NCBI RefSeq assembly: GCF_022343685.1
Contig: NZ_CP092123.1
Coordinates: 620,001-684,000 of the forward strand
From: Marinobacterium sediminicola
GTDB lineage: Bacteria > Pseudomonadota > Gammaproteobacteria > Pseudomonadales > Balneatricaceae
Reading direction: 5' to 3'
Length of the DNA: 64,000 nucleotides
Numbering within the stretch: position 1 is the first letter of the stretch; the number at the start of each line of letters is the position of its first letter. The position numbers were made by a program, and so were the translations under genes. The notes under the pieces are model-generated. The model saw nothing but the letters and a program-made list of their open reading frames with translations, was not told the origin of the DNA and did no database searches. This document shows, in pieces, positions 9,370 to 14,533 of the stretch.

Positions 9370-9888
9370 GTGCCGATACGCTTATCGCTTATCCCCAATC
9401 TTGTTTTGTGTCTGTTGCTGGTTGGCTGTGCCAGTCGAAATTCAGTGCCGCCACAAAGTCATTTCAACGATGCTCAACGTCACCGTCTGCTCCAGGTCTT
9501 TGCCGATTGGGCAGGCACCCCATACCGGTTTGGTGGCAATGATCAAAAGGGTGTCGATTGCTCCGGGTTTATCCAACAGGTTTTTTGGCAGCTGGACGGT
9601 CGGCTGTTGCCCCGCACAACTGAACAGCTGGCTGAGCTTGGAGGCAGGGTCCGGCTGCAGAAACTGCAACCGGCTGATCTTATATTTTTCAAAACCGGGG
9701 AGAAGCAGCGTCATGCCGGGATATACATTGGCAATGGCGAATTTATCCATGCATCCACAAGTCGGGGAGTGATGATCTCTCGACTGGATAATCCCTATTG
9801 GCAGGATGCCTGGTGGATGGCAAGGCGGCTGGCTCCGGAAGAAGTTATTAACAGGAGCGTCGATCTGTCCCTCAAGTCGGCAGAATAA
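9370..9888 (+). CDS. NlpC/P60-family cell-wall peptidase, lipoprotein
   Basis: The GTG start at 9370 is preceded by AGAGG at proper spacing. The 172-residue product begins with a lipoprotein signal peptide ending in the lipobox LLLVGC (Cys about 20), so it should be lipid-anchored in the periplasm. The NlpC/P60 domain (about 45-150) has the catalytic Cys in VDCSGFIQQVF, the His in RHAGIYIG and the third polar residue His in FIHAST. Such enzymes (Spr/MepS, YdhO class) cut peptide cross-links or stem peptides in peptidoglycan, usually next to D-glutamyl residues. The short length matches the Spr type. No operon partner: the neighbouring gene upstream is divergent and a 420-base gap follows. Confidence 0.9.
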   Translation: MPIRLSLIPNLVLCLLLVGCASRNSVPPQSHFNDAQRHRLLQVFADWAGTPYRFGGNDQKGVDCSGFIQQVFWQLDGRLLPRTTEQLAELGGRVRLQKLQPADLIFFKTGEKQRHAGIYIGNGEFIHASTSRGVMISRLDNPYWQDAWWMARRLAPEEVINRSVDLSLKSAE

Positions 9889-10309: not shown

Positions 10310-11263
10310 TTGAGGAAAATGTGGCTAAGGTTCAGTGTCATTCTGCCTCTGGTCGTTGTTCTGGCTGCTTGTTTGCCGTCGTCCACTCCTCCCCTGAAAC
10401 TGGGGACCAACCTCTGGCCCGGTTATGAGCCCCTGTATCTGGCACGGCAGCAGGGGCTGCTGTCTGAGGATCAGGTTGCCTTGGTCGAGTTGCTCTCGGC
10501 CAGTGAGGTTATGCGAGCTTTTCGTAACGGTGCGATCGATGCGGCAGCACTGACGCTGGATGAGGTCATCAGCCTCAGGGCCATTGGCCTGAAGCCGGTG
10601 ATTGTCCAGGTGGCCGATATTTCCAATGGCGCCGATGTGATTCTGGCTCGGCCCGGTATTCGTGCCGTTAACGACTTGCAGGGCCGTCGGGTTGGCGTCG
10701 AAGCAACCGCTCTTGGGGCATACATGTTGTCACGAGCGCTGGAAATGCATCAGATGTCACCGGACGATGTGGAAGTGGTCAGGCTGGAGGTCAACGAACA
10801 TCGGGAGGCGTTCTTGAGCGGTGCGGTGGATGCCGTCGTAACCTTTGATCCGGTCCGCCAGCAGCTGATGGAAGCCGGAGCGGTAAAGGTGTTCGATTCG
10901 AGCCAGATTCCAGGTGAAATCGTGGATGTGCTGGTCGTGCGCGAATCTTTGCTGAAAGAGCGTCATGACCAGATTCAGCATCTGGTACAGGCCTGGCAGC
11001 GAAGCCTGGATCTGGTTCGCTCGCAGCCAAGGTCTTCGGCGGAAATGATGGCCGAACGCCTGAAACTGACACCGGACGAAGTGCTCAAGAGTCATGAGGA
11101 TCTGGAGCTGCCCGGTTGGCAACGCAGTCGAAATCTGATGGGCAAGACCTCTCCGTTACCTCAGCAGGCGGTGAAACTGGCTGACAGCATGTTTCAGCAC
11201 CAGCTCATCGACACAATTCCGGATCTGGAGGGGCTGATCTACAGCCATTACCCCGTCGAATGA
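10310..11263 (+). CDS. periplasmic substrate-binding lipoprotein (NMT1/SsuA-like), orphan
   Basis: The TTG start at 10310 has AAGAGGA six bases upstream; an ATG at 10319 is the alternative. The 317-residue product has a lipoprotein signal ending VLAAC (Cys about 21). The mature part reads LKLGTNLWPGYEPLYLARQQGLL, the opening of NMT1/SsuA/TauA-type ABC-transporter binding proteins, followed by AFRNGAIDAAALTLDE and GRRVGVEATALGAYMLSRALE, which belong to the same fold. No ABC permease or ATPase is nearby. Instead the gene overlaps the next one, a GGDEF-EAL protein, by four bases (ATGA), implying translational coupling. By analogy with NspS-MbaA of Vibrio cholerae, the protein may bind a small molecule and report it to the periplasmic domain of its partner. 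The ligand is unknown. Confidence 0.85.
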   Translation: MRKMWLRFSVILPLVVVLAACLPSSTPPLKLGTNLWPGYEPLYLARQQGLLSEDQVALVELLSASEVMRAFRNGAIDAAALTLDEVISLRAIGLKPVIVQVADISNGADVILARPGIRAVNDLQGRRVGVEATALGAYMLSRALEMHQMSPDDVEVVRLEVNEHREAFLSGAVDAVVTFDPVRQQLMEAGAVKVFDSSQIPGEIVDVLVVRESLLKERHDQIQHLVQAWQRSLDLVRSQPRSSAEMMAERLKLTPDEVLKSHEDLELPGWQRSRNLMGKTSPLPQQAVKLADSMFQHQLIDTIPDLEGLIYSHYPVE

Positions 11264-14052
11264 GTCTTATCAACAACATCCCTCTGCGCCGGGTTATACC
11301 GGCGACCATTCTGGTATTTGCAGTGGTCATGCTGGTGCTGTCGTTTGCCGTCATCAAGCCCTTCGTTGGTGAACTGTTGTATCAGAATCTGGAATCGGGA
11401 CTGCGCTCAACGCTGAACCGCTTGCAGGGGACTACCGAATATCTGCTCAGCAAGGGCGACCTTGAGGGCGTGAGGCGAGAGGTTGCTGCCACCAGCGCGC
11501 ACATCGAGGTGAAAAACCTGCTGATGATCGACGCCAGCGGCAAGGTGGTAGCGGCCAGTCAGCTTTCGTATGTAGGGCAACTGATTAACAGTGTGCCTAT
11601 TCATTACGAGTCGTCGTTGATCGACGAGGTCAAGGCGGGCTGGAAGCCGGCCTATCATCGTCAACAGCAGGGTGAAAATACCATCTACGGTGCGGCCCCT
11701 TATCTTTATCCCGATACTGAAAACGGGTTTCGGGAGCGCAGAGGACTGGTTATTCTGGAAGTCGATATCGACCGTACTCTGAACCAGGTTTACCGGCGTC
11801 TGGATACTCTGTTCATGTGGGTAGGGATAGCCGTAGTAGTGTTGGCCGGCTTTTCCTGGTTGCTGCTTGAACGAGCGGTCAACCGGCGGCTGGTACGGAT
11901 TACGGATACGGTTCACCGGCTTGCTGCTGAAGACTTCAGTCACCGAACCCTGCTACAGGGAAAGGACGAACTCAGCATGCTGGGCCAGACGCTTGACCAG
12001 ATGGCCGACCGTCTGGAGCAGAACCGTTATCAGCTGGTGCAGGCCAACCGGCAAATGGAAAATATCCTGCGCTTCATACCGTCGATGGTCTACATCAAGG
12101 ATCCGGAAGGGCGTTATCGCCTGGTCAATGAACGTTTTGTTCAGGTGCTTGGAGAGCCGGACGAAGGCGGAACAACCGTTTTTGATGTGCTTCCTGAGCC
12201 TTTTGCCAGCGAGATTGCGGATCATGACCGCAGAGTGCTTGAAAGCAGAGAAGCGCGCCAGTTTCATATCAGTTTTCCGGTGCAAGGCGAAATGCACAAC
12301 TGGTTCATGGTCAAGTTTCCTCTGGTCAATGAGGAAGGGCAGGTGTATGCCATTTGCACGGTAGCGACGGACGTAACCGAGCAGGAACGTAACGAGAACC
12401 TCGCCAGAATTGCGCAGCGCGTCTTCGAGCACACTACGGAAGGGATCATGATCACCGATGCGGAGAATCGCATCGTCGATGTCAATCAGTCCCTGGTGGA
12501 GATGACCGGTTACACGCGGGATCAGTTGCTGGGCCAGCCGCCGTCACTGCAGCGATCAGATCAGCAGGACGCAGGCTTCTATGCCAGCATGTGGAAGGCG
12601 CTTCAGACACAGGGCAAGTGGAGTGGTGAACTGATCAACCAGCGCGCAGACGGTCAATACTATCCGGTTCGCCTGTCGATCAGCACCATCCTCAATCGGC
12701 AAGGTGAGCGCGATGGTTTCTTCGGCATCTTCCAGGATATTACCGAGGAGAAAAAATCGGAGCGGGATCTCCACCTGCTGGCGTATCACGATACCTTGAC
12801 CGGGCTTTTCAACCGTACCGAGTTCATGCGCATTCTGGCAGATGCGCTGAAGCGAGGAGAGCGGTATGGCGAGCCCTTTGGCCTCTTGTTTATCGATCTT
12901 GACCTGTTCAAGGAGGTCAATGACAGCTTTGGCCATGCCGCCGGCGACAAGTTGTTGTGCCAGGTCGCCGAGCGATTGCGCGGCTGTTTGCGTGAGACGG
13001 ATCATGCTTTCCGTCTGGGAGGGGATGAATTTACAGTGCTGCTGCCAAAGGCGGGTCACGACAGTGACTTGACGACGGTTGCTGATAAGCTGATTGAGCA
13101 GCTGCGCGAACCATTTCTGATCGAGGGACAGAAAATACAGATCGGTTGCAGTATTGGCATGGTCAGTTATCCCAGAGACGGCAGTGAAAGGGATACCCTG
13201 CTGGGGCATGCTGATGCGGCCATGTACTTTGCCAAGGAGCAGGGACGTGGACGCTACGCCTTCTTTGACCCACAGATCAATGCTCGCAACCAGCGTGTGA
13301 TGAAGATCAAGACCGGTCTGAATCAGGCTTTGGAAAAGCAGGAGCTGAGTCTTGTCTATCAGCCGCGTGTGCACTCGGAAAGCCGCAAGGTGACAGGCTA
13401 TGAGGCGCTGCTACGCTGGAACAGCGAAGAGCTGGGTTCGGTCTCACCTGCAGAGTTTATACCCATTGCTGAAACCACCGAAGTGTTGGGGCAGATGACT
13501 GCCTGGTTACTGCATCAGGTCGCTCAGGATTTGTCCCACGAAGTCATGCGTGGCAAGCAGGTGAGTATCAACCTGTCACCGCGTCAGTTCCAGACCGGCA
13601 ACTGGGCCGCAACGCTCAAGGCGACCATCGAGCAGTACCGATTGCGGCCCGACCAGCTCTGTATCGAGGTGACGGAAAATGCGCTGGTTGAAAACTTTCA
13701 GGCCACGGCTGCTCAACTTGAAGAGATGCAGGCGCTGGGTGTGGAAGTGGCGATTGATGATTTCGGGACAGGGTATTCATCGCTGGAGTATCTCAAGCGA
13801 CTGCCAATCGACTATCTCAAAATCGACCGCTCCTTCGTGCGTGACATCGAAACAGACGCGGATGATCGCGTGATCGTCGAGACGATCATCGTATTGGCCC
13901 ATTCGCTGGGGCTGCAGGTGGTCGCGGAAGGGGTGGAAACATCGGCGCAGGCGGAGTTCCTTCAGGCACGGGGTTGTGACGAGCTGCAGGGCTACCTGTT
14001 TTCCGCACCGCGTCCGCTGTCCGAACATGGTGAACAACAGGTAAAAATCTAA
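11260..14052 (+). CDS. membrane GGDEF-EAL protein with HAMP and two PAS domains
   Basis: A 930-residue c-di-GMP enzyme. Order: TM1 (about 12-33), periplasmic domain (about 35-185), TM2 (about 187-205), HAMP (about 206-258), PAS1 (about 265-375), PAS2 (about 385-500), GGDEF (about 505-665), EAL (about 680-925). The cyclase site GGDEF is intact, with an inhibitory-site RETD five residues before it. The EAL domain keeps GYEALLRW, NLSPRQF, IEVTENAL, AIDDFGTGYSS, LKIDRS and VVAEGVET, so both synthesis and hydrolysis are possible. The start overlaps the binding-protein stop by four bases. Layout and linkage match MbaA-type receptors that are switched by a periplasmic binding protein between cyclase and phosphodiesterase states (inference). 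The extra PAS pair suggests a second, cytosolic input. Confidence 0.94.
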   Translation: MSLINNIPLRRVIPATILVFAVVMLVLSFAVIKPFVGELLYQNLESGLRSTLNRLQGTTEYLLSKGDLEGVRREVAATSAHIEVKNLLMIDASGKVVAASQLSYVGQLINSVPIHYESSLIDEVKAGWKPAYHRQQQGENTIYGAAPYLYPDTENGFRERRGLVILEVDIDRTLNQVYRRLDTLFMWVGIAVVVLAGFSWLLLERAVNRRLVRITDTVHRLAAEDFSHRTLLQGKDELSMLGQTLDQMADRLEQNRYQLVQANRQMENILRFIPSMVYIKDPEGRYRLVNERFVQVLGEPDEGGTTVFDVLPEPFASEIADHDRRVLESREARQFHISFPVQGEMHNWFMVKFPLVNEEGQVYAICTVATDVTEQERNENLARIAQRVFEHTTEGIMITDAENRIVDVNQSLVEMTGYTRDQLLGQPPSLQRSDQQDAGFYASMWKALQTQGKWSGELINQRADGQYYPVRLSISTILNRQGERDGFFGIFQDITEEKKSERDLHLLAYHDTLTGLFNRTEFMRILADALKRGERYGEPFGLLFIDLDLFKEVNDSFGHAAGDKLLCQVAERLRGCLRETDHAFRLGGDEFTVLLPKAGHDSDLTTVADKLIEQLREPFLIEGQKIQIGCSIGMVSYPRDGSERDTLLGHADAAMYFAKEQGRGRYAFFDPQINARNQRVMKIKTGLNQALEKQELSLVYQPRVHSESRKVTGYEALLRWNSEELGSVSPAEFIPIAETTEVLGQMTAWLLHQVAQDLSHEVMRGKQVSINLSPRQFQTGNWAATLKATIEQYRLRPDQLCIEVTENALVENFQATAAQLEEMQALGVEVAIDDFGTGYSSLEYLKRLPIDYLKIDRSFVRDIETDADDRVIVETIIVLAHSLGLQVVAEGVETSAQAEFLQARGCDELQGYLFSAPRPLSEHGEQQVKI

Positions 14053-14091: not shown

Positions 14092-14119
14092 TTGACAGAA
14101 AATCTGAACTCTATAAAAT
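14092..14119 (+). promoter_or_regulatory. sigma-70 promoter of the tRNA operon
   Basis: A perfect -35 TTGACA (14092-14097) is followed after 16 bases by TAAAAT (14114-14119) and then a GC-rich discriminator (CTGCGCCC), as is usual for stable-RNA promoters under stringent control. The first tRNA starts 15 bases later. Confidence 0.8.
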
Positions 14120-14134
14120 CTGCGCCCATCCTTT

Positions 14135-14222
14135 GGAGGGGTGGCTGAGTGGTCGAAAGCACCGGTCTTGAAAACCGACGAGTCGAGAGGCTCCCAGGGT
14201 TCGAATCCCTGCCCCTCCGCCA
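14135..14222 (+). tRNA. tRNA-Ser (TGA)
   Basis: 88 nt including an encoded CCA end. The acceptor GGAGGGG pairs with CCCCTCC, the anticodon loop is CTTGAAA (anticodon TGA), the long variable arm of class II tRNAs is present, and the T-loop is GGTTCGAATCC. First of four tRNAs in the cluster. Confidence 0.97.
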
Positions 14223-14246
14223 TTAAAGGATGATGATTTGAGCAGT

Positions 14247-14322
14247 TCCTCGATAGCTCAGTTGGTAGAGCAGTAGACTGTTAATCTATTGGTCCCTGGT
14301 TCGAGTCCAGGTCGAGGAGCCA
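14247..14322 (+). tRNA. tRNA-Asn (GTT)
   Basis: 76 nt with an encoded CCA end. Acceptor TCCTCGA pairs with TCGAGGA, the anticodon loop CTGTTAA gives GTT, and the T-arm contains GGTTCGAGTCC. It follows tRNA-Ser by 24 bases and is likely co-transcribed. Confidence 0.97.
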
Positions 14323-14366
14323 AATCATGAAGGCCTTGCCTGTCTGGCATGGTCGCTGCAAAGAGC

Positions 14367-14442
14367 GGGTCGTTAGCTCAGTTGGTAGAGCAGTTGGCTT
14401 TTAACCAATTGGTCATAGGTTCGAGTCCTATACGACCCACCA
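14367..14442 (+). tRNA. tRNA-Lys (TTT), copy 1
   Basis: 76 nt with an encoded CCA. Acceptor GGGTCGT pairs with ACGACCC, the anticodon loop CTTTTAA gives TTT, and the T-loop is GGTTCGAGTCC. It is identical in sequence to the copy 91 bases downstream. Confidence 0.97.
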
Positions 14443-14457
14443 CTCTTCGCAACCGGA

Positions 14458-14533
14458 GGGTCGTTAGCTCAGTTGGTAGAGCAGTTGGCTTTTAACCAAT
14501 TGGTCATAGGTTCGAGTCCTATACGACCCACCA
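14458..14533 (+). tRNA. tRNA-Lys (TTT), copy 2
   Basis: Identical to the preceding tRNA-Lys over all 76 nt and separated from it by 15 bases: a tandem gene duplication giving higher dosage of the lysine AAA/AAG tRNA. Last tRNA of the cluster. Confidence 0.97.

Follow-up and report, generated by a model that had tools for sequence, protein, structure and literature searches.

A conserved pairing of an NMT1-type binding lipoprotein with single-Cache membrane receptors points to a new family of binding-protein-driven sensors

Introduction

What does a periplasmic binding lipoprotein do when its gene adjoins that of a membrane receptor and no transporter gene lies beside it? The question is raised by two overlapping genes in a 64,000-nucleotide stretch of the Marinobacterium sediminicola genome (hereafter the window; G000:C1:620001-684000 of the 3.55 Mb single-contig genome, NZ_CP092123.1). 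The upstream gene encodes an NMT1/TauA-fold substrate-binding protein (SBP) and the downstream one a receptor with a periplasmic sensor followed by HAMP, PAS, PAS, GGDEF and EAL domains (Table 1). An initial annotation made from the letters alone had described a binding lipoprotein with no ATP-binding cassette (ABC) partner gene beside it, overlapping by four bases a GGDEF-EAL gene with intact motifs, and the open reading frames (ORFs), Pfam matches and alignments bear out each of these points. Translations of the surrounding ORFs in the window include no ABC gene, and no permease or ATPase lies next to the pair in seven relatives of the genus either. The ATGA at the junction of the lipoprotein and receptor genes suggests, as read in the sequence, that they are translationally coupled. 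We consider it likely that the two genes constitute one sensor, in which the ligand signal of the SBP passes via the single-Cache receptor to an output in cyclic di-GMP (c-di-GMP).

Conserved linkage of the binding protein to membrane receptors

Judged by the binding protein, the nearest named relatives are Marinobacterium species, and the pair is retained in all eight Marinobacterium genomes examined and is hence not a chance arrangement. In one relative (G007; L038:3661-6452), the receptor gene is split within the EAL domain into two frames of 744 and 186 aa. A collection scan with the binding protein found 407 relatives, of which the best 80 were studied; 78 of these are assigned, to 11 named phyla, with many of the 80 being metagenome bins and single-phylum entries correspondingly soft. 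Five contigs stop less than 300 bases past the binding-protein gene, and in 74 of the 75 left for the downstream count a sensor-profile search recovers a same-strand ORF with the same sensor domain within 250 bases downstream. Since 39 of these loci, together with the window, supplied the sequences for the profile, their own matches are by construction; the single window sensor as a query recognizes 44 of the 80 loci. The outputs attached to this sensor differ across the 75: 29 are GGDEF-EAL proteins, 12 GGDEF proteins and 25 histidine kinases, with eight unclear, cut or other and one with no recognized receptor.

A class-wide and less biased draw (369 genomes, E 1e-60) returned 49 hits in 43 genomes, of which 47 were analyzed, the window itself and a locus already in the set being left out; one of these loci (L216) is identical to the named locus L159. 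By the profile, 42 of the 47 display a sensor downstream, comprising 32 with the same sensor and ten with a PhnD-like one (one of the ten, L235, being merely a 158-aa fragment). Reading of the neighboring ORFs brings the count to 44 through the addition of L184, a truncated contig with the sensor at a gap of 3, and L238, which has a GGDEF-EAL protein downstream with the sensor not recognized. Across homologous pairs, the gap of −4 seen in the window is the commonest (48/116). The initial annotation had proposed a gene-neighborhood search and had named a lack of conserved linkage as the outcome that would count against it; the linkage is conserved in both draws and across the 11 phyla. The GGDEF-EAL layout with two PAS domains, by which it had defined the pairing, is present here but is specific neither in the GGDEF-EAL part nor in the two PAS domains, and a GGDEF-EAL-specific pairing was rejected because the outputs vary among relatives.

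In five histidine-kinase loci (L119, L134, L209, L241 and L244, the last two being one family), an EAL or GGDEF-EAL gene lies close downstream, and from this gene order they too may converge on c-di-GMP. In a set of 57 relatives, the weaker matches are mixed and many stand beside ABC genes; in four of them (L057, L059, L060 and L061), the gene that follows once more encodes a GGDEF-EAL, GGDEF or histidine-kinase protein. Other variants of the arrangement were also seen. In a Beggiatoa bin (L109:3990-5693), the output of the SBP-sensor module is of the HAMP-SpoIIE phosphatase type. Receptors with PhnD-like sensors downstream of the same binding protein belong to one subclade (L228, L229, L233, L235, L240, L242, L245-L248, L046 and L052), in which free and fused binding domains may act together. 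At L225:1545-4163, an 872-aa binding-protein frame carries a long N-terminal stretch, possibly an over-long frame or a fusion.

Divergence of the binding protein tracks the sensor domain

The tree of binding proteins comprised 88 rows: 54 of 107 sensor-paired proteins (every second, with the window), all ten PhnD-paired, 11 ABC-linked, eight others and five outgroup rows. The signalling binding proteins form one clade (67 rows, three of them from the class of others; Shimodaira-Hasegawa-like approximate likelihood ratio test (SH-aLRT) 97), and the guanidine-importer group, including L050 and L053, forms a separate one (12 rows, SH-aLRT 93); the deeper branching order, which involves L060, L061 and L065 and the long outgroup branches, is unsupported, and support is weak for 37 of the 85 inner branches. 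On this tree, the output type has to change 17 times.

For 59 pairs with a GGDEF domain, distances between binding proteins correlate with those between sensors at 0.61. In partial Mantel tests on these pairs, the association of SBP and sensor given GGDEF is r = 0.55 (0/2000 permutations reach it), and that of SBP and GGDEF given the sensor is r = −0.06; thinning of near-copies to 58 pairs leaves both unchanged (0.548 and −0.069). Across all 102 pairs, the SBP-sensor correlation is 0.52, and it is 0.43 between pairs with different outputs. Thus, the divergence of the binding protein tracks the sensor domain and not the GGDEF domain, which is what a physical partnership of SBP and sensor predicts. 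The module is the binding protein plus the sensor, and its output end is exchangeable. The coupling of lipoprotein to receptor that the initial annotation had put forward is thereby supported, because the pairing is conserved, the sensor domain is shared and the binding protein co-diverges with the sensor rather than the output; a search for an orphan ABC partner likewise found none (see below).

Architecture of the two proteins and predicted mechanism

The lipoprotein matches Pfam NMT1_2 (2.3e-23) and NMT1 (4.2e-19), both above cut-off. Among NCBIfam models, it falls below the cut-offs of SsuA_fam (TIGR01728; 131.3 bits against 163.5), TauA (TIGR01729; 45.1 against 304.25) and the "urea" SBP of the guanidine-importer group (TIGR03427; 103.6 against 333.9), for the last of which the riboswitch-linked L051 and L250 themselves reach merely 145. 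Because the SsuA_fam score lies under the cut-off, the protein is by sequence NMT1/SsuA-like, yet no called SsuA. At E 0.01, neither Pfam nor NCBIfam gives a match to a spermidine-type family. Its lipobox reads LAAC (C21 counted from the TTG start), and since a lipobox-like motif occurs in 79 of 102 paired binding proteins, lipid anchoring is common in the family though not universal. The AlphaFold2 model (predicted local distance difference test (pLDDT) 94.9) has TauA as its best PDB match (6ssy; template modelling scores 0.82/0.87), and SsuA matches too.

The sensor model (268 aa, 40 alignment rows; pLDDT 90.8) displays a long N-terminal helix and a PAS-like sheet flanked by two transmembrane (TM) helices, by which the periplasmic part of the receptor is modelled as a single-Cache domain; Pfam reports no Cache match in the receptor at E 0.01. 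Its closest folds in Foldseek are the extracellular domains of WalK/YycG, with CitA and a LapD orthologue among the matches. The cytoplasmic motifs are intact, namely GGDEF (587-591), the inhibitory I-site RETD (578-581) and EAL (715-717), as are N771, E803, D833, D834, K854, E890 and Q910, which we take to be the usual metal-binding and catalytic positions of EAL domains. In an alignment of 11 sequences including that of the window, the GGDEF, I-site and EAL positions are invariant or nearly so.

We propose that the lipoprotein would bind a small molecule in the periplasm and, in its loaded (or empty) form, would dock on the single-Cache domain; the resulting change would be relayed via TM2 and HAMP into the PAS-PAS-GGDEF-EAL part, where the balance between synthesis and degradation of c-di-GMP would shift. 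Here we infer the physical contact, the direction of the effect and the ligand. Ligand-dependent docking and control through TM2, HAMP and the PAS domains would follow the pattern of known SBP-driven receptors (PMC9602780).

The ligand pocket and kinship to guanidine importers

The sulfonate group of the TauA ligand is bound by Gln30, and its amine by Glu106, Thr132 and Asp205 (PMC6906117). Aligned with the lipoprotein, Glu106 corresponds to Asp109, Thr132 to Leu135, Asp205 to Asp206 and Trp176 to Phe179; Gln30 would correspond to Trp36 if the mapping is continued ungapped, this position lying four residues before the aligned part. Across 117 signalling proteins, W36 is conserved in 116, D84 in 116, E85 in 116, D109 in 117 and D206 in 112, and conservation is among the highest at the pocket residues, suggesting that the family has retained ligand binding. 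On this mapping, the pocket thus keeps the part of the TauA site that holds the cation and seems to have lost the part for the sulfonate, and a sulfonate ligand deduced from the family name alone was rejected on the same grounds. The expectation that the ligand is probably not a polyamine holds as family-level reasoning; the pocket itself looks amine- or guanidinium-type, with a cation likelier than a sulfonate.

The closest ABC-linked relatives point in the same direction. In ten of the 11 nearest of 15 ABC-linked relatives (L033, L068, L069 and L070, distant outgroup rows, being left out), Rfam detects a guanidine-I riboswitch on the strand of the binding-protein gene, at most 100 bases ahead of it. 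The one without it (L050:6741-12052) is a guanidine-clade ABC system with genes for glutamine synthetase III and a creatininase-like protein beside it, and is possibly an importer of creatinine or a guanidino compound. The neighbors of L063 include a gene for urea carboxylase (1860 bits) and one for a UAAP protein; operons that combine guanidine carboxylase with an ABC importer of guanidine, controlled by guanidine-I riboswitches, have been described (PMC12186494). The residues S105, G107, D109, S197 and D206 are common to the signalling family and all 11 guanidine-type proteins, and T82 is present in ten of the 11. In a background control of 26 NMT1_2 proteins (two orthologues omitted, two frames not located, seven of the 26 frames doubtful), two have D109 with D206 and none has S105 and G107 in addition, versus 11/11 of the guanidine type.

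Several observations weigh against a guanidine ligand. E40, D84 and E131 are unlike most guanidine importers, and the placement of the acid at 84/85 shifts with the alignment method, owing to which an acid criterion picks up only four of the 11 guanidine-type proteins. Neither guanidine-I nor guanidine-II riboswitches were found in the M. sediminicola genome (classes III and IV not being searched genome-wide), the whole window yields only tRNAs at the Rfam gathering threshold, with no guanidine-I upstream of the pair, and no guanidine-I riboswitch was found in 28 searched loci of the signalling family. Guanidine-I occurs in just two of eight genus members, one of these below cut-off. Across the 369 genomes, co-occurrence of the signalling family with guanidine riboswitches is weak (9/42 versus 31/327, p = 0.03 with no correction for relatedness; for class I alone, 6/42 versus 22/327, p = 0.11; for class II alone, 6/42 versus 20/327, p = 0.10; G082, with only an ABC-linked copy, counted as non-signalling).

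The most probable ligand class is a small amine cation, guanidinium-like or otherwise, given that the nearest ABC-linked kin import guanidine under riboswitch control and have a pocket that matches. We take a small cation with features of guanidinium as the likely class. More tentatively, and with the odds somewhat against it, the wider family across the 11 phyla could be an extracellular sensor that reads guanidine or a guanidino compound through a dedicated SBP akin to guanidine importers, with exchangeable outputs that are mostly c-di-GMP enzymes, i.e., a guanidine-to-c-di-GMP pathway. As a further clue to the ligand, we considered six neighboring genes of signalling loci (encoding an isopropylmalate-type dehydrogenase, a cation ATPase, a BNR-repeat protein, a biotin ligase, an NlpC/P60 protein and a histone-deacetylase fold) and rejected them, as they have no common theme.

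Alternative explanations

The lipoprotein might instead serve an ABC importer encoded elsewhere, its adjacency to the receptor being incidental or a matter of mere co-expression. Its fold is that of the TauA/SsuA importers, and more distant relatives (L250 and many of L050-L070) do adjoin ABC genes. The initial annotation had held that a permease and ATPase elsewhere using this protein would tell against it, and we looked for such a partner in the M. sediminicola genome. The NMT1 profile recovers five proteins, namely the lipoprotein, L033 and L034 (with adjacent ABC genes), a protein of the NMT1_3 (TAXI) type and a fifth that is closer to SBP_bac_3; NMT1_2 adds one about 1 kb from a permease match near 2742k-2743k. 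Three of 19 permease matches lie within about 1 kb of NMT1-type binding proteins of their own (near 3522k, 1814k and 2743k), and no orphan ABC partner for the lipoprotein was found, although the other 16 are unassigned and a permease may be shared. Among signalling loci, with one or two neighboring genes upstream and two downstream inspected, only L250, the lowest scorer of the class-wide draw and part of its remainder, has a permease match, together with an ATPase gene. Some loci do speak against a general coupling to receptors: L121 among the 75 named relatives has no recognized receptor; in the class-wide remainder, L213 has a 217-aa ORF downstream with no recognized receptor and L231 has no receptor downstream; and an ATPase-like ORF precedes L207 and L231, as it does L174, there on the opposite strand. 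Co-divergence could also come about by joint transfer of neighboring genes, which we regard as the weaker explanation. Set against the importer reading are the receptor linkage in 74/75 and 42-44/47 relatives, the supported clade of signalling proteins apart from the guanidine importers and the divergence that follows the sensor domain, and we judge it very improbable.

If the pair is a sensor, the binding protein could still act ligand-free, much as YfiR or YycH/YycI do, in a structural role or as a partner in redox or envelope-stress signalling. WalK/YycG is controlled by partner proteins, and the sensor fold is nearest to it, the top match being a WalK-YycH model; however, the conservation of the pocket residues argues for a bound ligand and renders this explanation improbable, if a little less so than the importer. 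A ligand-binding sensor could, in turn, recognize an anion (sulfonate, nitrate or a sulfur oxyanion). The Pfam and NCBIfam family names and the TauA structural match favor such a ligand, as do several carriers titled after sulfur- or nitrogen-oxidizing groups, whose lifestyle we presume to be as titled. Against it, the position of TauA Gln30, on the mapping extended four residues past the alignment, is Trp36 in 116/117 proteins, the pocket retains or gains the acids D84, E85, D109 and D206, the nearest ABC-linked clade is under guanidine riboswitch control, and the combination of S105, G107, D109 and D206 sets the guanidine type apart from the background proteins, doubtful frames included. We hold an anion to be unlikely, although the least so of these three alternatives, and favor a sensor pair responding to a small cation.

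Relation to known systems

In NspS-MbaA (Vibrio cholerae; Sinorhizobium meliloti), as here, a periplasmic SBP gene adjoins a membrane GGDEF-EAL gene and the ligand is read as c-di-GMP. NspS binds polyamines and belongs to a different SBP family, whereas the SBP in M. sediminicola has the NMT1/TauA fold, the sensor is single-Cache and the output is swapped for GGDEF proteins or histidine kinases in relatives; strict membership of NspS-MbaA was rejected on the difference in SBP family. The guanidine ABC importers (TIGR03427 and kin, with urea/guanidine carboxylase) are the closest ABC-linked SBP relatives and share the pocket set, but the lipoprotein differs from them in having no adjacent transporter or riboswitch and in carrying E40, D84, E85 and W36-P-G-Y39. 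With TauA/SsuA it shares the fold and, as D109 and D206, the amine-coordinating acids of TauA (Glu106 and Asp205), and it departs from them in the replacement of Gln30 by Trp36 (extended mapping) and in lacking an adjacent TauBC/SsuBC partner.

Binding proteins also drive sensor kinases: TorT-TorS is an SBP-activated sensor kinase, and TtrS is a sensor kinase with a PhnD-fold sensor. The PhnD-like sensor domains of some relatives' receptors would parallel that of TtrS, and the histidine-kinase receptors among relatives are reminiscent of SBP-activated kinases such as BctC-BctE (PMC9602780); in BctC-BctE, TorT-TorS and TtrS, the SBP families differ from the one here. What characterizes SBP-dependent receptors in general, i.e., the conserved linkage of an orphan SBP to a receptor with a periplasmic sensor, is found in this family. 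The pair is therefore a new family of the known SBP-driven kind of receptor, with NspS-MbaA as its nearest analogue by design, and not the new type of small-molecule to c-di-GMP sensor that the initial annotation had suggested.

About ten SBP-driven sensor kinases had been characterized by 2022 (PMC9602780), and a 2022 review of c-di-GMP inputs states that within the periplasmic-binding-protein clan SBP_bac_3 alone has been studied in c-di-GMP networks (PMC8846402). In the open-licence literature, we found no paper, by title or abstract, on NMT1-type SBPs paired with GGDEF or histidine-kinase receptors or on guanidine sensing to c-di-GMP; nor did we meet there an SBP-sensor core with exchanged outputs or its kinship to guanidine importers. 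The M. sediminicola genome also has a second orphan SBP of the SBP_bac_3 class (L252:2556-5261; G000:C1 ~2163555-2166260), a Lys/Arg/Orn-like protein of 337 aa followed after a gap of 18 by a 557-aa GGDEF protein with no Pfam EAL match; these genes are possibly a second SBP-diguanylate cyclase pair in the same genome.

Features of the locus

Table 1. The gene pair and its parts in window coordinates; residue numbers are those of the receptor
Feature	Position	Strand	Basis
NMT1/TauA-fold substrate-binding lipoprotein, 317 aa	10310..11263	+	TTG start; Pfam, AlphaFold2 model
ATGA stop/start overlap, 4 bases	11260..11263	+	read in sequence
Membrane receptor, 930 aa: single-Cache sensor-HAMP-PAS-PAS-GGDEF-EAL	11260..14052	+	ATG start; Pfam, catalytic and inhibitory motifs
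Helix 1/TM1, periplasmic single-Cache domain and TM2 helix (residues ~9-222)	11284..11925	+	AlphaFold2 model
HAMP (203-254)	11866..12021	+	Pfam PF00672 2.4e-10
PAS_4 (273-377) and PAS (386-494)	12076..12741	+	Pfam PF08448 1.1e-30, PF00989 1.2e-26
GGDEF diguanylate cyclase domain (508-664)	12781..13251	+	Pfam PF00990 1.7e-48; alignment
EAL phosphodiesterase domain (687-917)	13318..14010	+	Pfam PF00563 4.6e-77; alignment

The lipoprotein gene has an alternative start, an ATG at 10319. The pair is located immediately upstream of a tRNA cluster (Ser-Asn-Lys-Lys; window 14092-14533 with its promoter), and a four-tRNA cluster lies downstream of the pair in locus L103 too. A scan of the window for promoters and terminators gave counts no higher than chance, its top match being the near-consensus (11/12) promoter at 14092-14119 that precedes these tRNAs. 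Upstream of the pair, the ORF at 9370-9888 presumably encodes an NlpC/P60 lipoprotein, which it resembles by motif, and L234 likewise has an NlpC/P60 gene ahead of its pair.

Implications

A family that keeps its SBP and sensor while swapping the output would offer a clear model of signal transfer from an SBP across the membrane. Free guanidine in bacteria is known largely via riboswitch-controlled export and degradation (PMC12186494). If the ligand of this family is guanidine-like, free guanidine would also be an outside signal to which behavior under c-di-GMP control responds.

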